DNA of 36,523 bases. Origin: Candidatus Macondimonas diazotrophica. GTDB taxonomy: Bacteria; Pseudomonadota; Gammaproteobacteria; UBA5335. Below the pieces are notes generated by a model. It was not told where the DNA came from. It searched no databases and saw only the letters and a program-made list of their open reading frames with translations. A program made the translations under genes and the position numbers. Positions 897 through 13,515 of this stretch are shown here, one piece after another (positions within the stretch are counted from its first letter, which is position 1; the number at the start of each line of letters is the position of its first letter). The DNA is taken from positions 1-36,523 of the forward strand of contig NZ_SRIO01000018.1 of assembly GCF_004684205.1 (NCBI RefSeq). Reading direction: 5' to 3'.

Positions 897-1169
897 CTAT
901 TTCAAGACGGATGGCGGAAGATCAAGACCTCGCCGGAGTGCGTTGATCTCGTCCAGTTCCCTTTTACATTCCTGCTCGACGTCGGTCGGCAATTCTGCGC
1001 CCGGACCCATGAGAAGCTCTGGATCGCAGCTCATGAGATATAGAGATTCCCGGTATTCGATAGTCGAGTAGAGCTGAGCGTAAGTCTCTGCAGACGGCCC
1101 TTCCGGCTCCGACGGCGCACACGCGCACAGGGTCGCTGCACACAAGACACTGGTGATATATTTCTTCAT
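897..1169 (-). CDS. Small predicted lipoprotein (90 aa)
   Basis: The N-terminus (MKKYITSVLCAATLCAC) is a lipoprotein signal peptide: basic start, hydrophobic core and the lipobox L14-C15-A16-C17, so Cys17 should be lipidated and the mature chain of about 74 residues should face the periplasm. The mature part is acidic and contains two more cysteines (about 49 and 68) that could form a disulfide. A very strong AAGGAGG ribosome site precedes the ATG. It lies downstream of a membrane coiled-coil gene but has its own upstream operator-like dyad, so it may be transcribed separately. The function is unknown; an outer-membrane lysis or superinfection-exclusion role is only a possibility. Confidence 0.75.
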   Translation of the reverse strand: MKKYITSVLCAATLCACAPSEPEGPSAETYAQLYSTIEYRESLYLMSCDPELLMGPGAELPTDVEQECKRELDEINALRRGLDLPPSVLK

Positions 1170-1188
1170 GACAAACCTCCTTTCTAAA

Positions 1189-1204
1189 GTCAGGTTATCC
1201 TAAC
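1189..1204 (-). promoter_or_regulatory. 16-bp operator-like dyad upstream of lipoprotein gene
   Basis: Read on the minus strand the site is GTTAGGATAACCTGAC, an imperfect dyad (GTYAGG-N4-CCTRAC). The same 16-mer, differing only in the central bases, occurs at 23925-23940 upstream of the exonuclease gene. It sits about 20 bases before the ribosome site of the lipoprotein gene and next to a TTGACA on the same strand, so it may be a repressor site overlapping a promoter. Binding is inferred only from the repeat and its position. Confidence 0.45.
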
Positions 1205-1213
1205 TCTGGTTTG

Positions 1214-1645
1214 TCAATTTTCCGTTTCCAGTATCGGTGAAGATGCGCCGAGTTGAAGCGCTTCAATGGACTTCGCCAGGTCTTCCCGACCCAGACGAGC
1301 CAGTTCCTCAACAGCACGCCGATGACGTGTTTCCCACGTCTTGCGCATGATCCGCTCCTGGGCAGCCTCGTCCTCTGCGGCTCGCCGGATGGCTCGTTCG
1401 GCGTCGAGCGCCTGTTCAAGCTCTTCGATGCGATCGAGGCACTCTGTCTCATTCTGCCGGATGCGATCAAATCGAGCCATCAGGTCGGTGTGGGCCGCTC
1501 CTGTCGCCTCGTCCAGGCGACTCTTGTCTTCCTGCCATTTCGGAGACAGGTTCTTGTAGGCCTGCCACAGGATCATGCCGGCGACACCCAGAAGCCCGAC
1601 CAGTCCGCCAATATTGCCGAGAGATTCGATATCAAGAGATTCCAT
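1214..1645 (-). CDS. Membrane-anchored coiled-coil protein (143 aa)
   Basis: I start this gene at the ATG at 1645-1643 because the upstream gene stops at 1647, one base away; the open frame extends further upstream but only by overlapping that gene. Residues about 10-28 form one hydrophobic helix (IGGLVGLLGVAGMILW). The rest is a long charged helix rich in E, R, A and Q, typical of a coiled coil. The short N-terminus is acidic and lysines follow the helix, which by the positive-inside rule suggests N-out/C-in. The role is unknown; its position before a lipoprotein gene recalls a spanin pair, but the predicted topology does not fit. Confidence 0.65.
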   Translation of the reverse strand: MESLDIESLGNIGGLVGLLGVAGMILWQAYKNLSPKWQEDKSRLDEATGAAHTDLMARFDRIRQNETECLDRIEELEQALDAERAIRRAAEDEAAQERIMRKTWETRHRRAVEELARLGREDLAKSIEALQLGASSPILETEN

Positions 1646-2699: not shown

Positions 2700-5600
2700 T
2701 CAGTTGTCAAGGACTTTCGGTGTCCGGCTGATGACATTGAGCCGGTACTCGTTGACCCTGTTTTGCCTCGGCTTGATCTCGACACGAACCTCGATCTCCT
2801 CTTCGTCGACATCGATACGAAACTGCCTGTTGGAGAGCATTTTCAGTTTTCTTCCAAGCTTGATTTTCAGTGTCTGCTCGTTGTTTGCCACAACAAAAGG
2901 AACCTGCTGTTCGGCAATGACGGCGAACAATCCTTCGGCTCCTGCGCCCTCTCCGCCGCCGATCTTGAGCCACTCGTCACCGAAAAGATCCCACCACAGA
3001 TAGATAAATTCGTCCATGGGACCGCTCTCGCTATCCGAGGAGAGCTTGAGCATGGATTCGTTTTCCATGAAACCGTCGACCCCGATGGATTCCATGATTC
3101 CGCCCATGACGGCGGCATAGTCCTCATACGAGGCCTTGGTCTTGGTCGATTTGGGGCACCCATCTGAAATCCACGCCTGGCAGAGAATGAGGCAGGCGTG
3201 GACGAGTCTGGTGCGGTTTCGGGCGACCCATTCAAGAAGATGTGTGTGCTTGAACCCCGTCCGGGCGGTGGGGTCTGATGTTTTCGGGTCGAGGTGAATG
3301 AGGAGCATGCGACGGATCATCTCAGATCGCATGTCGACATTGTTCCCGCAGACGATGAACTGGTTGCGGATCGGAAACTCGATGGAGCTGGACTGCCCAA
3401 GCCGGCGGTCTTTCCAGAACTGCGACGTGACGACGGATGCGAAGCTCTGGCTGTCAATGGTCCTGTCGACATTGTCGAGCCAGAAATAGCGAGCCCCTTC
3501 GGACAGAGACGCCGTGATCGTTTTCCGGAATTCCTCTTCACTGTCGGGAAGTGTCTGTGCCTGTGGCTCACGCCCGGAGGAGATGCGCAGAATGGCGTTG
3601 ATAAGAAGCGTTGCACCCGTACCTGGCAGAGGCTTGTCCACAAAGTAGATCGGCGTCGGGCCGTGGATCATTGGGCGAACAAAAGGCTGCAGAAGCATTG
3701 CGAGTGCGTGGCACCTCGATGATTCTCCTTCCGTGTTGTCGTCGAATGGGAAATCGACGAACACATTGTCCATGATGAAGTCGAGCGCCTCGAAGACTTC
3801 CTCGTCTGTCGGATTCACAGGGATGTCTGGGTAACTCCCGGCGTCGGGGTCGTCGAGATAGTACCCGCTTTCATTGTAACCCGGTTCCATGACGAGATCG
3901 CCGTCATCGGTATAGAAAGGCGTGGAGACGATTTCGTGGAGGATGGGAAGCCTGTTTCTGGCATTATCCGAGGCCAGCATGGTGCGGATCACGGCGTCAG
4001 GTGGAGCAGCTGTCTGATCTCCTTCCATTGTCAGGGTCTTCCAGTGACAGGAGTGCGCGACAGCATCCAGGAGATCGTTCGTTCCGACAGACCGTTTGGT
4101 CTTGCCTGACAGCATCGTCTTGAGCCGGACGATCTCGCCCTGGTCAGACCAGAACATCTGTGGGTTGTCCCGCTGCTTTCGAAGAAGCTTGGACCAGGCC
4201 AGCCGGACCTGCGTGTCGAAGCTGGTCTTGTCGATATAGATCACGCCCATTTCGGCGCGCTTCTCGTATTCTTCCGAAAGCTTGTCGGCTTCCTCCAATG
4301 CCAGCCTCTGTCGCGTTTCCTTGTAGTTCTTGTCCATGTCGGCACGGGAGAGACCGAGCCTCTTGGCCATGGTCTTCATAAGCTCGGATCGTTCCAGAGT
4401 GGAGTACCGTGTCTTGCATATGGCGGAGATGATTTCTTCGGCGTCCGCGATTTCCCCGGCCTTGAGCCCGTCTATCGCTCGCTTGATGTCCGTCTTTTCA
4501 AACAGAACAAGCGCTTTCTTCGCCTTCTCCTCGCATTCCTCGTCGTCTTCCGCGACGATGAAGACGTAGTTCTCGTCTGTCAGCACGGATTCCGGGAACC
4601 ACTCGTCATCGAGCATCTTGGCCAGAAAATCCAGCCTGTCGTGTTCCCGACAGGAGTCATGCCGGCAGGTAGCGATGAATCCACCTTGATCGGATTCAGA
4701 CCCGTTGATGACCATGAATGCTCGGTCTTCCGGATCTCCTGCATTCGAGTGATCTTCGTCGAAAGGACACTCGATCTCCATTCCCTGGTTTGAGGAACAG
4801 GAGCCTCGAACCTTGTCGGGGACATGGTCCCTGACAGCATCAAGGATTTCAAACCCGTCCGCGTAGATGGAGGCCCATTTCTTGAGGGACATTCCTTCGA
4901 TCTGACGGGAGGCGCCTGCCAGATGACTGCCAAGCTCCTTCAGGGCAGCAAGGCCTTTTCGGGTCGACTTGATTTCAGGAACGGAATTGAAGTCCAGAAG
5001 CTCGCCTGCCACGAGGATGATTGAAAAGGCCGAACCCTCTGCGTGTGACGGGAGATAGAACAGGCGGGAGGGGTCTGTACAGCTCTCATCCATGCGCTCG
5101 ATGCCGAGCATCTGGGCGAGTCCGCGCAGTTTGTCGGCGAAGCGTTCCAGGCGCCTCTTGTGGGGTTCGGACGGGAGGGAAAATGGGAAGTCTTCCGCGA
5201 GCGGGATGAACACTCTGAATTTCGGCAGCGGGTTGTGATAGAGGCGCCATGCCGGCTTGTCCGTGTGGACAAATTCAGGCTCCGGAAAGTCGCCCTCGAA
5301 GACGGACTTGTCGATGCCCTTCTTCTCTACCCAGTAAAGAACAAGCATCTCACGGGACGGAACGGCGTCGTCTTCGTCCAGATCGCAAAACTTGATGACC
5401 ACATCCTGTTCCGCGTCGGAATAATTGGCCAGGTGAGAGTGCGTCGTGTAGATCAGGCCGCAGACATTGTTGTCGAGAAGCGCGTCCTCGATGTCTTGCG
5501 GATTCTGCCCGTTGTCGACATCGATTCCGACCATGGACGCGTAGTGCATGGCCTTCTTGGATCGTTCCGAGCCGTGTCCGAGCACAATGCACGGCCCGTC

Positions 5601-5813
5601 CTTTGGCCCGACCTTGTGGTGCGACAGGGTCGATGCGAACAGATTTCCAAAAGTCGTCGTGCGGGGAATCCAGCGGTCACGCGACAGTCGGGCGCCGTTC
5701 GGAGAGTAAAGCATGGAGACTTCCCGGTCCCACACGCTTTTGTCGACGACGCCGACGATTTCGGCGTCGTTCAGTGTCTCGACTTCAATTTCTTCGTAAT
5801 TGGTGTCTGTCAC
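2700..5813 (-). CDS. Primase-helicase fusion protein (1037 aa)
   Basis: A large replication protein that probably makes primers and unwinds the fork. The N-terminal part (about 90-260) looks like an archaeo-eukaryotic-type primase/prim-pol: an acidic GIDVD (98-100 as DVD), THSH at 124-127, and a conserved DPSRLFYLP near 247-255. A zinc-binding-like segment follows (CPFDEDH at 349-355 and CRHDSC at 383-388). After a helical linker, the C-terminal part (about 680-880) resembles a phage or virulence-type AAA/SF3-like helicase: P-loop-like GTGAT near 731-735, hydrophobic-plus-acidic YFWLDNVD (777-783), sensor-like CGNN (822-825) and a RRMLLIHLD segment. The P-loop lacks the usual lysine (see findings). 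The GTG start at 5813 lies two bases beyond the upstream gene's TGA; the terminator is at 2573-2604. Confidence 0.85.
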   Translation of the reverse strand: MTDTNYEEIEVETLNDAEIVGVVDKSVWDREVSMLYSPNGARLSRDRWIPRTTTFGNLFASTLSHHKVGPKDGPCIVLGHGSERSKKAMHYASMVGIDVDNGQNPQDIEDALLDNNVCGLIYTTHSHLANYSDAEQDVVIKFCDLDEDDAVPSREMLVLYWVEKKGIDKSVFEGDFPEPEFVHTDKPAWRLYHNPLPKFRVFIPLAEDFPFSLPSEPHKRRLERFADKLRGLAQMLGIERMDESCTDPSRLFYLPSHAEGSAFSIILVAGELLDFNSVPEIKSTRKGLAALKELGSHLAGASRQIEGMSLKKWASIYADGFEILDAVRDHVPDKVRGSCSSNQGMEIECPFDEDHSNAGDPEDRAFMVINGSESDQGGFIATCRHDSCREHDRLDFLAKMLDDEWFPESVLTDENYVFIVAEDDEECEEKAKKALVLFEKTDIKRAIDGLKAGEIADAEEIISAICKTRYSTLERSELMKTMAKRLGLSRADMDKNYKETRQRLALEEADKLSEEYEKRAEMGVIYIDKTSFDTQVRLAWSKLLRKQRDNPQMFWSDQGEIVRLKTMLSGKTKRSVGTNDLLDAVAHSCHWKTLTMEGDQTAAPPDAVIRTMLASDNARNRLPILHEIVSTPFYTDDGDLVMEPGYNESGYYLDDPDAGSYPDIPVNPTDEEVFEALDFIMDNVFVDFPFDDNTEGESSRCHALAMLLQPFVRPMIHGPTPIYFVDKPLPGTGATLLINAILRISSGREPQAQTLPDSEEEFRKTITASLSEGARYFWLDNVDRTIDSQSFASVVTSQFWKDRRLGQSSSIEFPIRNQFIVCGNNVDMRSEMIRRMLLIHLDPKTSDPTARTGFKHTHLLEWVARNRTRLVHACLILCQAWISDGCPKSTKTKASYEDYAAVMGGIMESIGVDGFMENESMLKLSSDSESGPMDEFIYLWWDLFGDEWLKIGGGEGAGAEGLFAVIAEQQVPFVVANNEQTLKIKLGRKLKMLSNRQFRIDVDEEEIEVRVEIKPRQNRVNEYRLNVISRTPKVLDN

Positions 5814-5815
5814 TT

Positions 5816-6079
5816 TCAGCCAGTGCAGAATACATAGTCAGCGCGCTCCCTGCGTTCGACGATGTATCCGGTGATATCGGCCTCTGCTGAGGTATCGACC
5901 AGCCTGATCATGATCCTTTCACGGTTTCCATAACCGTTGCAGTCGCCGATATAAATCGCGCTGCCTCGTCTGGAATCTGAGATGTGAAGGTCTATGTCCG
6001 AGAGGACACGACTTGATGTGAAGCTGGCCTGGTAGCTCATTTGAGCGGCCAAGAGGATTGTAGCGAGTGGGGCTAGCAT
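5816..6079 (-). CDS. Small predicted exported protein (87 aa)
   Basis: The N-terminus (MLAPLATILLAAQMSYQA) is hydrophobic and could be a short signal peptide cleaved after an alanine; the remaining 70 residues are polar with two cysteines (about 47 and 85). I do not recognise a family. The start has a strong AAAGGAG ribosome site and lies downstream of a good sigma70-like promoter (6101-6128). Its TGA stop is two bases before the GTG of the primase-helicase, so this small gene leads the replication operon and is likely translationally coupled to it. Confidence 0.65.
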   Translation of the reverse strand: MLAPLATILLAAQMSYQASFTSSRVLSDIDLHISDSRRGSAIYIGDCNGYGNRERIMIRLVDTSAEADITGYIVERRERADYVFCTG

Positions 6080-6100
6080 GATGATCTCCTTTCTGGTTTC

Positions 6101-6128
6101 ATGCTAGGAGAAAACTTCAGTTTGTCAA
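6101..6128 (-). promoter_or_regulatory. Sigma70-like promoter for the primase-helicase operon
   Basis: On the minus strand TTGACA (complement of 6123-6128) is followed after 16 bases by TAGCAT (complement of 6101-6106), then the AAAGGAG ribosome site and ATG at 6079. The -35 box overlaps the stop codon of the upstream gene, so it would give the small exported protein and the primase-helicase their own transcript. Confidence 0.6.
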
Positions 6129-6553
6129 CTTTTTTCCATCAATCTGGACAGTTTCTGGGAAGGCGTCAGACCTTCTATCTCTGAGGTCCAGTCGTCTGGG
6201 AAATCCGCGATGTCCTTCGAGACGATCCCGAACTCCTTGGACTGTCGCCACCGGTCGGCCTGTGCCTTCCAATAGAGGACAGATTTTCGGATATCTTCCG
6301 GAACCCGGTCGTCTTCGATGATCTCGGCGATCATGCCTAAGGCTTTCTTCTGGCAGACGCTTTGTGTCTCGACGTAGCGGAATTGGTCGTACACACCGCG
6401 CAGGAACGATACGATCAGCGCGAGCCTCAGCCTCTCCTGACCCTTGATCGACGCATTGGACAGGGTCAGGTAGGCCTGTTTGAGCATGGACTCCGGCGTT
6501 CGCTCAAACCGCTTCAGGCCAAAGGACCGGGTCTTTTTTGTTGGGGTCTCCAT
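6125..6553 (-). CDS. Hypothetical helical protein (142 aa)
   Basis: Unrecognised, basic and predicted mostly helical, with no membrane segment. The first 15 residues are lysine/arginine-rich. It starts 9 bases after the HslV-like gene stops, so the two are probably co-transcribed; its own ribosome site is weak. Nothing in the sequence shows a specific function. Confidence 0.6.
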   Translation of the reverse strand: METPTKKTRSFGLKRFERTPESMLKQAYLTLSNASIKGQERLRLALIVSFLRGVYDQFRYVETQSVCQKKALGMIAEIIEDDRVPEDIRKSVLYWKAQADRWRQSKEFGIVSKDIADFPDDWTSEIEGLTPSQKLSRLMEKS

Positions 6554-6561
6554 AGTAAGGA

Positions 6562-7056
6562 TTACCCAGCTATGGGGAAGTATTCCGGATCATCCGAGGC
6601 CTGGTGCAGGGAGATGGCGGCGATCCTTGCTCCTGTGTAAATGTCGTGTTTCGCGGCCATTTGGATAGCCGTGATCGCATCTGATCCTGCAGCCATTGCG
6701 CCCAGAGCGAAGGAGGAACCGGACCCGGAGGCCCAGTATTCTACATTGGAGGGATAGAAATGGGGAAGGTGAACATTGCTGGAATGCCACGCAACACCGT
6801 TCTGGTCGATCCATAGGAACTCGGACATATAGGTATCGTCCGGATCGATTTTTGCCATGATTGGAATTTCGTCTTCCGGCATCCCCCGAGAGATCCACTC
6901 AAAATACTGGAATACCTGCCAAGGACAACCTGTCCCGCCGAAGAGCATTTCGTCAACACGACGAACCTTGAGCACAGTTCTCGCGCCTGTTTGATTCTCA
7001 CCTGTAACCTGCATGTCGCAAGCGAGAACACCGTCGCGATAAGCGAGTGTGGACAT
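6562..7056 (-). CDS. HslV/proteasome-like N-terminal nucleophile hydrolase (164 aa)
   Basis: The chain has the layout of a short proteasome-beta/HslV-type protease subunit. MSTLAYRDGVLACD at the start matches the phage version of the HslV N-terminus, with a conserved aspartate at 14 and a lysine at 30 in the places of the catalytic helper residues. A GSGS followed by ALGAMAAG near residues 112-122 is the family's typical glycine-rich turn and helix. These proteins expose their N-terminal Thr (or Ser) after Met removal and cleave peptides in ring assemblies, with an ATPase partner for HslV. Here residue 2 is Ser rather than Thr. No HslU-like ATPase gene is in the window. Its function in phages is not established. 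Confidence 0.75.
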   Translation of the reverse strand: MSTLAYRDGVLACDMQVTGENQTGARTVLKVRRVDEMLFGGTGCPWQVFQYFEWISRGMPEDEIPIMAKIDPDDTYMSEFLWIDQNGVAWHSSNVHLPHFYPSNVEYWASGSGSSFALGAMAAGSDAITAIQMAAKHDIYTGARIAAISLHQASDDPEYFPIAG

Positions 7057-7062
7057 AGGGAC

Positions 7063-7332
7063 TCAGTTTTTCCGGAAGAAAGAGGCGGCAACGCCGACTA
7101 CGAAGGCGAGGACGACCCACGCCAAGAGGAGGATGACGAAGCCAAGACAAAGCGCCGGAAAGATATAAATCGGGAGAAAAACGAGCCACCACGGGATGCT
7201 TGTGAAGCCGAACAGGTTCGCCGCGAACATGATGAGTGTGAGGCCGACAAGGAAGAGACCGGCGCTTCCGGTCTTCTGCACAATAACGGTTGGGTTCGGC
7301 GCAGATGAAGCGTTCAGTCGGGACAGGTTCAT
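7063..7332 (-). CDS. Small integral membrane protein (89 aa)
   Basis: After a polar N-terminus of about 22 residues come hydrophobic stretches at about 24-44 (GLFLVGLTLIMFAANLF) and 47-82 (WWLVFLPIYIFPALCLGFVILLLAWVVLAFVVG), enough for two or three membrane passes. It ends with a short basic tail. A good GAAAGGAG site lies about 14 bases before the ATG. Size and topology would allow a holin, but no endolysin is adjacent and many phage inner-membrane proteins look like this, so I leave the function open. It stops 6 bases before the HslV-like gene begins. Confidence 0.65.
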   Translation of the reverse strand: MNLSRLNASSAPNPTVIVQKTGSAGLFLVGLTLIMFAANLFGFTSIPWWLVFLPIYIFPALCLGFVILLLAWVVLAFVVGVAASFFRKN

Positions 7333-7359
7333 CTTACATTGGCTCTCCTTTCAAGGGAT

Positions 7360-7400
7360 TTCGGGCTCTGTGACAGGTTGAACCTACCTCAGAGCCCGAA
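7360..7400. repeat. 41-bp concentric palindrome beside the recombinase gene
   Basis: Outer arms TTCGGGCTCTG (7360-7370) and CAGAGCCCGAA (7390-7400) are perfect complements. Inside, AGGTT-G-AACCT (7375-7385) is a second dyad with the same centre, base 7380. The element lies 31 bases beyond the stop of the tyrosine recombinase gene. It has no T-tract on either side, so it is not a typical terminator. It could be the recombination core, a regulator's operator or an RNA hairpin; the first two are favoured by its position and inner symmetry. Confidence 0.6.
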
Positions 7401-7431
7401 CAAAGGCAAATTCGTGTTGGCCGAAACCGTC

Positions 7432-8034
7432 TCAGGCGTATTCAAGGTCCATCGTCATGGCCTTCGATGCCGGCGTCTCGTCGATATACTCCTCGGTCGT
7501 CGACAGACAGGCGTGTCCGAGCATCAGCTGGACATCCCGGAGGGTCCCACCATACTGGTGTACTGTCTCGGCTTTCTTCGTCGCCAGAGTGCGCCGGCCA
7601 GAGTGAGACGAGACGCCGGAGAACCCACAGTCGCGATAGAACCTGCGGAACCACTGGACCATCGTGTTGGGGGACAGTCCGTCCTTGTTCGGCTTGGGCG
7701 AGTGCACCACGAAGGAGGACTGACCCTGCTGGGCGGCGTGAAGTTCGACGAGCGCTTCGACGATAGGCTTGGGAAGGGACAGAGTCCGCTCTCGACCGTT
7801 CTTCGCGATGTCGCCGGACACCCAGACCTTGCCGGTCATCTTGCCCTCGGCGTCGAAGACATGGCGGTCCCATTCAAGACCGGCGATCTCGCAGGCACGC
7901 AGGCCGAGACCGAACGACAGATGCAGGATCACGACATCGCGCTCCGGCGTGCGGGTCTGGCGTGCCTGTGAGAAGCAGAACCGAATCTGGTCAGGGGTGA
8001 GGCGCTTGGCCTTGCGTTTGATGTGGGGGGACAT
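7432..8034 (-). CDS. Short tyrosine recombinase / integrase (200 aa)
   Basis: Catalytic-domain-only site-specific recombinase of the lambda-Int/XerC family, which cuts and rejoins DNA through a covalent phosphotyrosine. All catalytic residues are visible: Arg46 (in GLGLRACEI), Lys78, His144-x-x-Arg147 (SSHSGRRTL), His174 (LMLGHACL) and the nucleophile Tyr183 (TTEEYID). The usual N-terminal core-binding domain of about 100 residues is missing, so it may bind DNA differently or act like short phage or integron-type XerC homologs. The ribosome site GAAAGGAG is strong. It may integrate the phage, resolve multimers or invert DNA; the neighbouring palindrome is a candidate target. Confidence 0.88.
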   Translation of the reverse strand: MSPHIKRKAKRLTPDQIRFCFSQARQTRTPERDVVILHLSFGLGLRACEIAGLEWDRHVFDAEGKMTGKVWVSGDIAKNGRERTLSLPKPIVEALVELHAAQQGQSSFVVHSPKPNKDGLSPNTMVQWFRRFYRDCGFSGVSSHSGRRTLATKKAETVHQYGGTLRDVQLMLGHACLSTTEEYIDETPASKAMTMDLEYA

Positions 8035-10686: not shown

Positions 10687-13515
10687 ATGGAGATCACTTT
10701 CGACAAAGGCCTGTTCGTTGCCAGGATACAGTTCCATGAGCGCAGCCAGTTCAAGAAGGCACTGTGGGACTGGAGCGATGAACTGAAGAGATGGACGACC
10801 GCTGACCCGGCGAATGTCGAGACATTTACAAACGCCTGCGTCGGTGAAGCCTCCGCCATCATGGAGAGGTATCTGGAGGAAAAGAATGCCGTCATTAGCG
10901 AAAGCCGTGCGCTGGATACCGCGTTTGTCGGATTGGTCCCAGAAGGCAAGGCCCTCTATGGCTTCCAGAACGCAGGAGTCGAATACGCACTCAGGCGCAA
11001 AGACACGCTGATTGGGGATGATCCAGGCCTGGGAAAGCAACAGCCGACATATTGTAAAGTTTTAATGGCGGATGGAAGCTACACCAGAATCGGTGATCTT
11101 GAGATTGGAGACAAGATCGCGTCTGTTGATGGCACAATCCAGACCGTGACAGGCATTTTTCCTCAAGGATTCAAGCCAGCGTATAGGGTCTATTTTCGGG
11201 ACAAAACCTCCACAGATTGTGGGCCGGAGCATTTGTGGACAGTAACCACCACACAGCGTCGAAGAAAATCAAAAGACCCGTGGTTTACCGCAACGTTAGA
11301 AGAACTTTTGAACAGAGGTATAACATTCTCTTCTGGAGGTAAAAATGTAAACAAATTCGAGGTTCCTATTCCCACCCCTTTGAACGCTTCGGATAAAAAG
11401 TTTCCAATTGATCCTTATCAGTTAGGTGTAATTCTGGGGGACGGCGGTCTACGCTCATTTCGAGGTGGATGCTGCACTATATCTTGTTTTGCGCCGGATG
11501 CCGATGAAATAATGGCTTCGTTTGATCCCAAGACGCAGGAAGAAGCGCTTGAGCAATATGGACAATGCCGAAGATTTTACGTGAGGGGGATTCAACCTGC
11601 GTTGAGAGAAGTAGGTCTTTATAGAAGCCTTGGACGAGATAAATTTATTCCAGAAATATATTTCTCAGGATCGGAACAACAACGCCTAAGCCTTCTTCAA
11701 GGACTTATGGACACAGATGGGTCAGCATCCAGAAATAGAATAACTTTTCATAGTTCAAATCATCGGTTGGCCAACGATGTCGCCAGACTTGTTCGGTCAA
11801 TAGGCGGCGTGGGAATTATTAGAGAATATGATCGTCCAGACAAGGAAACTTACGAAAAAGACATACAAGTCAATGTTCGATTAGACAGATGGTGCCCATT
11901 CAGGATAAACCGGAAAGCAAACCAGTGGAAGCCAGCTAGTTTCAACAATAGACCCAAGAAAGCTATATGTAAGGTTGAGAGAATAGAGGATCAAGAGCAG
12001 GTTTGTATATCTGTTTCTCATCCTTCTGGTCTATACATAACAGATGATTACATTGTCACCCACAACACCACGCAAGCAATCTCAGTAGCAAACGAGATGT
12101 TCGAATCTGGTGAACTCGAAGATGTCCTTATTTTATGCGAAGCCTCTCAAAAAGCGCACTGGAGTCGACAGTGGCCAGACTGGACCACAACCGGACTGGA
12201 CATCGGAGTCGTTGAGCGACGAGTTAGACAGAAGAACAAGATCAAGCGCACTGTCAGCATTATCCCGGATACTCCAGTCACAGTTGTCAACTATGATCTT
12301 CTGGGACAAATCCACGATTGGCTCGCCGAACAGCCATGGAGCCTCGTCATCGCCGACGAGTGCCAGGCCCTGCGCAATATGGAAGCGCAGAGGACGAGAT
12401 ATGTCTTCGGAGATGAAGAGCGGCTCATCGTTAAGCCTGCTGGACGTAACAAAGATGGTTCATTCCGCATGGTACGGAAGAGGCTCGAAGCTGTGCGGGC
12501 AATTCGGGGGGATCGACGTGTATTCCTTACCGGGACTCCCATCGAGAACCGCCCTCATGATCTCTGGCCCATTATCAGAGCATTTGATCCGGAAGGACTC
12601 GGGTCTGATTATGAGTTCTTCATAAAAAGGTACTGCGGCGCCTATTGGACGGAGTATGGCTGGAGCACGAGCGGGGGTACGAACCTTATTGAGCTTCAGA
12701 GATATCTCCGCTCAACCTTCATGGTTCGGAGAACGACGCAGCAAGCCCTGCCGGATATGCCGCCAAAGACCCGGCGTCCGTTTTTCCTTCCGGCTGATGA
12801 CTTCAAGCATGTCCTGAAGAAGTCCGATGATGTCTTCGAACGCAGCCTGGATGCCCTTGAGGAACATCTCGGCCTAAGAGCGGAAGGCGAGACGGAAGAC
12901 AGAATGTTCTCTGTCTGGGAAGAATTGTACACAAGGTATGGCGACCAGATCGAGGACGCCACTTATGAAGAGATCATGGAGCTTGTGCCCGAAGAGGCGT
13001 CAGTCGCCTTCGAGGAGATCGCCAAACTCCGCTCGGAACTGGCGGTAGCGAAGGTTCCTTACATCATCCGACACGTCCGGGAAATCACGGACGCCGGCGA
13101 AAAGGTTGTGGTGTTCTTTTACCACAAAGTCGTTGGCCAAGCCTTGAGAGAGGCCTGGGGCGACTCCTGCGGTTATATCGATGGGTCGATCAAGCCCACG
13201 AAACGGCAGGACGAAGTGGACCGTTTCATGGAAGACCCGGATTGCACGGCAATGTTCGGGCAGCTCCATGCGGCGTCCAAGGGTTTCACGATGACCGTGG
13301 CCCGACGGGCTGTGTTCGGGGAACTGGATTGGCGTCCGGGAACCATGAAACAGGCCGAGAATCGCATCTGGCGCATCTCGCAGGAAAACCACTGCCTGAT
13401 CGATCACCTGATCGTCGAATCCTCGATCGAGGTTCGCCAGTCTCACTCACTGATCGAGAAGCAGGAGCAAATGGACAAAGCTCTTGATCACGAAGAATCG
13501 GAGACTCAAGAATGA
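10687..13515 (+). CDS. SNF2-type DNA helicase/ATPase precursor interrupted by an intein
   Basis: Superfamily 2 ATPase of the SNF2 group, which translocates on or remodels DNA; phage members are thought to act in replication or recombination. The P-loop reads GDDPGLGK (110-117) and then is broken by a 343-residue intein (118-460); the extein resumes with TTQAI, restoring GLGKTT after splicing. Beyond it come the acidic box VIADECQALRN, the SNF2 motif TGTPIENRPHDLW, and near the C-terminus the Q-A-E-N-R-x-x-R-I motif (KQAENRIWRISQ). The mature helicase would have 599 residues. The N-terminal 80 residues are SMARCAL1/HARP-like in position only; I recognise no domain there. Starts 2 bases after the upstream stop; the TGA overlaps the next ATG. 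Confidence 0.88.
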   Translation: MEITFDKGLFVARIQFHERSQFKKALWDWSDELKRWTTADPANVETFTNACVGEASAIMERYLEEKNAVISESRALDTAFVGLVPEGKALYGFQNAGVEYALRRKDTLIGDDPGLGKQQPTYCKVLMADGSYTRIGDLEIGDKIASVDGTIQTVTGIFPQGFKPAYRVYFRDKTSTDCGPEHLWTVTTTQRRRKSKDPWFTATLEELLNRGITFSSGGKNVNKFEVPIPTPLNASDKKFPIDPYQLGVILGDGGLRSFRGGCCTISCFAPDADEIMASFDPKTQEEALEQYGQCRRFYVRGIQPALREVGLYRSLGRDKFIPEIYFSGSEQQRLSLLQGLMDTDGSASRNRITFHSSNHRLANDVARLVRSIGGVGIIREYDRPDKETYEKDIQVNVRLDRWCPFRINRKANQWKPASFNNRPKKAICKVERIEDQEQVCISVSHPSGLYITDDYIVTHNTTQAISVANEMFESGELEDVLILCEASQKAHWSRQWPDWTTTGLDIGVVERRVRQKNKIKRTVSIIPDTPVTVVNYDLLGQIHDWLAEQPWSLVIADECQALRNMEAQRTRYVFGDEERLIVKPAGRNKDGSFRMVRKRLEAVRAIRGDRRVFLTGTPIENRPHDLWPIIRAFDPEGLGSDYEFFIKRYCGAYWTEYGWSTSGGTNLIELQRYLRSTFMVRRTTQQALPDMPPKTRRPFFLPADDFKHVLKKSDDVFERSLDALEEHLGLRAEGETEDRMFSVWEELYTRYGDQIEDATYEEIMELVPEEASVAFEEIAKLRSELAVAKVPYIIRHVREITDAGEKVVVFFYHKVVGQALREAWGDSCGYIDGSIKPTKRQDEVDRFMEDPDCTAMFGQLHAASKGFTMTVARRAVFGELDWRPGTMKQAENRIWRISQENHCLIDHLIVESSIEVRQSHSLIEKQEQMDKALDHEESETQE
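11038..12066 (+). mobile_element. Class 3-like intein with LAGLIDADG endonuclease in the helicase P-loop
   Basis: Protein-splicing element of 343 residues between GLGK and TTQAI. It begins with Gln, not Cys or Ser; the block A/B core is normal (ADGSYTRIGDLEIGDKIASVDG-like, HLW at intein residue 67). Near the end, block F carries a Cys (QVCISV, residue 323) and the element ends THN followed by Thr. A Trp in HLW, the block-F Cys and Thr+1 are the W-C-T triad of class 3 inteins, in which the internal Cys replaces the missing N-terminal nucleophile. The central part has two LAGLIDADG-type helices (LGVILGDGGL and LLQGLMDTDG), so a homing endonuclease is probably intact. The DNA is clearly more AT-rich than the flanking extein. 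Confidence 0.85.

Follow-up and report, generated by a model that had tools for sequence, protein, structure and literature searches.

The reading frame of an SNF2-type helicase on a contig of Candidatus Macondimonas diazotrophica is interrupted by an insert that begins with Gln, and this locus raises the question whether the insert is an intein, to which mechanistic class it belongs and how it came to lie in its host gene. An earlier note, made from the sequence, had read it as an intein with exactly placeable splice points and an apparently intact endonuclease, had assigned it to class 3 on the basis of a W-C-T triad (Trp in block B, Cys in block F and Thr at position +1), had called this class rare and phage-associated, and had proposed modelling of the splicing fold. 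The window analysed here comprises all of contig C18 (36,523 nucleotides; genome assembly of 2.8 Mb in 94 contigs). As judged from its residues and junctions, the locus very probably encodes a full-length class 3 intein with a LAGLIDADG homing endonuclease, inserted into the Walker A loop of an SNF2-type phage helicase.

Collection of relatives, alignment and modelling

Relatives of the intein were gathered from viral contigs, annotated phages and bacterial genomes. Two profile scans were performed with patterns based on LAGLIDADG motif 2 and on the THN end; the conservation of Thr341 is therefore partly ascertained, whereas Cys323 and Trp67 were contained in no pattern. The resulting alignment had 200 rows, two of which were the window's own copies, leaving 198 relatives. 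The tree covered gathered relatives only, all of which have Cys F:4 and Thr G:5. The AlphaFold model was built from a 45-sequence alignment. The coordinates of all features are listed in Table 1.

Table 1. Features of the interrupted helicase gene (positions in the window; residue numbers refer to the intein)
Feature	Position	Strand	Basis or remarks
SNF2-type helicase precursor gene	10687..13515	+	942 aa unspliced, 599 aa spliced; Pfam; phage orthologues
N-extein, 117 aa	10687..11037	+	Ends in ...IGDDPGLGK, the Walker A motif through the invariant Lys
Putative class 3 intein, 343 aa, Gln1 to Asn343	11038..12066	+	Junctions, signature, alignment, fold
Gln1, no N-terminal Cys/Ser/Thr nucleophile	11038..11040	+	Translation; 199-row tally
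His65, block B:10	11230..11232	+	200/200 rows
Trp67, block B:12, W of WCT	11236..11238	+	198/200 rows (196/198 relatives); aligns with Trp of 6rix and 6riz
LAGLIDADG motif 1, YQLGVILGDGGL, residues 127-138, catalytic-position Asp135	11416..11451	+	Alignment
LAGLIDADG motif 2, RLSLLQGLMDTDGS, residues 216-229, catalytic-position Asp227	11683..11724	+	Pfam, alignment
Cys323, block F:4, C of WCT, predicted initiating nucleophile	12004..12006	+	200/200 rows
Thr341-His342-Asn343, blocks G:5 (T of WCT), G:6 and G:7	12058..12066	+	T and N 200/200 rows (T partly ascertained); H 199/200 rows
Thr +1, block G:8, predicted second branch point, Walker A Thr of the spliced helicase	12067..12069	+	
C-extein, 482 aa plus stop	12067..13515	+	Remainder of the helicase; orthologue comparison

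The host gene and its phage context

The open reading frame of the helicase runs through all 942 residues without an internal stop. Its exteins matched the Pfam families SNF2-rel_dom (5.8e-19) and Helicase_C (7.5e-8), and these helicase domains are interrupted by an insert with matches to LAGLIDADG_3 (9.7e-8) and Hom_end_hint, both at about 1e-7. Among the PHROG matches on the window were a DNA transfer protein, a DNA polymerase, a RecE-like exonuclease, a Dda-like helicase, a thymidylate synthase and a ribonucleotide reductase, and the window is therefore a piece of a phage genome; an IMG/VR viral contig of 36,523 bases is the same record. Together with the full-length phage relatives described below, this context agrees with the phage link drawn previously, and a phage origin of the class has been proposed (PMC3196547, PMC5050341). 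A nucleotide search of positions 1-25000 of the window against phages gave a single match of 65 bases, so that this phage has no close sequenced relative across that region. When viral contigs were scanned for close relatives of the helicase, the window itself was the sole match, and a further 94 genomes related to the host gave weak partial matches in two cases and the intein in none. The window also carries a large gene on the minus strand (2700-5813) whose entire length matches PHROG 10537 (5e-201), a family without an assigned function; its primase/helicase matches were weaker.

Splice junctions and alleles at the insertion site

The junctions read GLGK / QQPTYCKV at the upstream end and DDYIVTHN / TTQAISVA at the downstream end, placing the insertion between the Lys and the Thr of the Walker A motif (GLGK^TTQAI). 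Orthologous helicases of four phages (Ruegeria phage vB_RpoS-V10, Caulobacter phage CcrMagneto, Microcystis phage Mwe-JY26 and Sphingobium phage Lacusarx) carry an uninterrupted GLGK-TI(Q/E)AI at this point, which shows that empty alleles exist and fixes both splice points. The boundaries of the 343-residue insert and its first residue, Gln, are thus as had been read from the translation. A full-length intein occupies the identical point in helicase orthologues of Brevundimonas and Erythrobacter phages, and the orthologue of Mesorhizobium phage Cp1R7A-A1 (L208:2149-4386) has a same-site intein of roughly 270 residues, in which LAGLIDADG motifs are unrecognisable. As its sequence suggests, this shorter intein is a natural intermediate in the loss of the endonuclease. 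It retains the block F Cys and the THN end, and its gene is annotated merely as a helicase. A chance match is excluded by the full-length phage relatives (best E value 1e-76), together with the positions conserved in the 198 related inteins.

Class 3 signature

By definition, the WCT motif of class 3 inteins comprises Trp B:12, Cys F:4 and Thr G:5 (PMC3196547, PMC5050341), and in the crystal structure of the 145-residue MchDnaB1 intein these residues are Trp67, Cys124 and Thr143 (PMC7664689). They align to Trp67, Cys323 and Thr341, respectively, of the present intein, and Cys323 is also aligned with Cys107 of an engineered gp41-1 intein. In the alignment with known class 3 inteins, the Trp of H65-L-W67 and the Cys of V-C323-I-S-V therefore lie where the earlier note had put them. 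Its assignment to class 3 likewise stands, as do the W and the C of its triad; its choice of the +1 Thr as the third member does not, since both the published definition and the MchDnaB1 alignment identify the T as Thr341 (G:5). The class 3 call survives this misassignment because Thr341 is present. Across the relatives the T at G:5 is invariant, partly by ascertainment, and the +1 residue is variable (Thr in 176 of 200 rows, Ser in 23 and Cys in one).

Residue 1 was tallied over 199 rows, in which Ala was found 138 times and Gln, an uncommon choice, twice. Cys, Ser or Thr occupied this position in 19 rows, with the W-C-T set still complete. The absence of these residues from position 1 is a usual, not a strict, class 3 criterion, and the present intein, with Gln1, shows it. 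Residue 6 is a Cys (YCKV) that is present in merely 14 of the 200 rows. In one relative situated behind a GLGK motif (L186:245-1273), His replaces Trp at B:12 while Cys F:4 and Thr G:5 are kept, and this sequence provides a natural test of the necessity of Trp B:12.

Predicted fold and endonuclease domain

The AlphaFold model (mean pLDDT 92.9, pTM 0.92) matched PI-SceI at full length (Z 27.6, rmsd 3.2, 323 residues). Among structures of a splicing domain only, 6bs8, a class 3 intein from DnaB of M. smegmatis, ranked first (Z 18.6, rmsd 1.6, 123 residues). Prp8 inteins were level with it in Z (18.5 and 18.4) but had a larger rmsd, and next came MchDnaB1, also of class 3 (6riy/6rix; Z 17.9), and gp41-1 engineered with a WCT motif (Z 17.5). 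The model proposed earlier thus resembles solved class 3 inteins in its splicing domain and PI-SceI overall. Because the Z scores of Prp8 inteins are as high as those of class 3 inteins, the fold alone cannot decide the class; the predicted fold supports an intein, and the class assignment rests on the residues.

The endonuclease fold of the model matched PI-SceI and I-DmoI. Both LAGLIDADG motifs retain their catalytic Asp (LGVILGDGGL with Asp135 and LLQGLMDTDG with Asp227), and in conjunction with the Pfam match to LAGLIDADG_3 they bear out the description of the endonuclease as apparently intact.

Comparison with known inteins

Earlier publications describe class 3 inteins in phages and P-loop insertions that separate Lys from Thr, and propose that the class arose in phages (PMC5050341, PMC3196547). 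To a family that has already been shown to splice, the present intein adds a clean but ordinary new member; an Snf2-helicase example has been known since 2010. This example, the Snf2 intein of Deinococcus radiodurans (Brace et al. 2010; PMC3196547, PMC7664689), is, according to these sources, a class 3 intein tested by experiment, and likewise resides in an Snf2-family helicase, the comparison covering class and kind of host; the present host gene differs in lying on a phage contig. The nearest named relative is found in Brevundimonas phages vB_BpoS-Papperlapapp and Domovoi (ON529860, ON529855; 43.8% identity by tblastn). It shares the helicase family, the site (GLGK^TIQAI), the W/C/T set and the LAGLIDADG endonuclease, but starts with Met, has 348 aa and is encoded by jumbo phages of ~355 kb, where it is annotated merely as a helicase. 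The DnaB inteins MchDnaB1 (6rix/6riy) and M. smegmatis (6bs8) have the same splicing-domain fold and equivalents of His65, Trp67, Cys F:4 and the Thr of THN, whereas they are mini-inteins of ~139-145 aa without an endonuclease and with DnaB as host. PI-SceI (the VMA1 intein) has the two-domain layout of HINT fold and LAGLIDADG endonuclease in common with the present intein, but its host gene is a different one and it lacks the WCT motif. PI-SceI uses class 1 chemistry.

Mobility and family

The intein has a GC content of 43.6% and a GC3 of 37.6%; its exteins have 54-55% GC, with GC3 values of 67.5% and 62.9%. Outside the intein, 4 of 669 sliding windows were equally AT-rich. In all three same-site pairs compared, identity was higher for the intein than for the host helicase (46.7 vs 34.0, 41.7 vs 35.9 and 36.4 vs 31.5%). 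In the tree, the query, the Brevundimonas phage intein and another viral SNF2-helicase intein were grouped with a support of 83, inside a 15-member clade (support 99) that includes inteins of other genes, and the SNF2 host label requires at least seven changes by starred branches. Homing plus jumps from gene to gene would give this tree and this pattern of identities. The AT-rich intein and the empty, full-length and endonuclease-decayed alleles at its site likewise fit homing, and such a well-delimited class 3 intein beside these alleles makes a tidy case in which to study how class 3 inteins home among phages. An independent conversion of class 1 into class 3 was weighed and set aside: all relatives gathered already had Cys F:4 and Thr G:5.

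Matches to the intein were found in 782 of 50,697 phage records, the signature having been checked in part of these matches, and 41 of the 198 relatives have a host homologous to the present SNF2-type helicase. The size of class 3 in phages is thereby shown to be large, and its earlier description as rare was overstated. Two viral contigs gave paired matches: in L004, two matches to the intein lie close together in neighbouring ORFs, and in L013 one ORF (4797-7832) apparently contains two inteins.

Proposed mechanism and alternative readings

By analogy with characterised class 3 inteins, we infer splicing, the order of nucleophiles and endonuclease activity for the present intein. Cys323, helped by His65, Trp67 and Thr341, would directly attack the Lys-Gln1 peptide bond, giving rise to a branched thioester at block F. 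The N-extein would then be transferred to the +1 Thr, Asn343 would cyclise with the assistance of His342, and an acyl shift would join GLGK to TTQAI and thus restore the P-loop (GLGKTTQAI). The intein would spread by homing, its endonuclease cleaving the conserved P-loop DNA of helicase alleles that lack an intein. Since the insertion splits the P-loop, it is a sound inference that the helicase would be inactive before splicing. The mechanistic understanding of class 3 splicing is left unchanged by this intein.

The selfish element might in addition act after translation as a switch by which helicase activity is delayed, for instance through redox sensitivity of Cys323. The split P-loop is in line with such a role, as is the response of mycobacterial DnaB class 3 inteins to oxidants and zinc (PMC6195587, PMC7360933), but the empty alleles, the AT-rich composition and the intact endonuclease are explicable by homing alone, no sign of regulation emerged from the analysis, and we regard this addition as unlikely. 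Retention of the intein for a regulatory role, with Cys323-initiated splicing sensing the state of the cell and timing phage helicase activity in infection, is decidedly unlikely.

A complete class 3 signature is no guarantee of activity, and the intein could belong to class 3 by descent and now splice poorly, as a decaying element in a phage able to spare the helicase. The Arthrobacter Arth_1007 intein is a published case of this kind (PMC3196547), the same-site relative of the Mesorhizobium phage is already without LAGLIDADG motifs, and in a second intein of the genome (L002) Trp B:12 is missing and the endonuclease motifs have decayed. The present intein, however, retains all splicing and endonuclease residues in an open frame, and its host helicase is conserved in both halves; moreover, the Arthrobacter intein is devoid of the Cys F:4 that is present here. 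We regard this reading as very unlikely. That the insert is a class 2 intein, with which it shares the lack of a residue-1 nucleophile, is scarcely credible, given that known class 2 inteins are orthologues of KlbA and have Ala1, Cys +1 and Ser G:6, none of which was found here, and that the insert combines an SNF2 helicase host, Gln1, Thr +1 and His at G:6 with the full W-C-T set. A full-length class 3 intein with a homing endonuclease is the reading preferred here.

Other inteins of the genome

The second, class 3-like intein (L002; G000:C22:13845-14678, plus strand) interrupts a phage terminase large-subunit-like gene at GASK^TS. Cys F:4 and the THN end are present, but Asn replaces Trp at B:12, and its LAGLIDADG motifs are decayed (ILSNAV, GIMDTS); because of the replaced Trp and the decay of both motifs it may be a poor splicer. 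A third intein of ~160 aa (L210; G000:C30 near 1071-1412, minus strand) lies in another phage terminase gene at GHAK^STYAS. Its first residue is Pro, a Cys occupies what appears to be position F:4, Trp B:12 is missing (SHPLL) and the end reads VHN instead of THN; by these residues it is a putative Cys-F:4 intein outside the WCT signature. Its nearest matches are the TerL inteins of Caulobacter and Brevundimonas phages.
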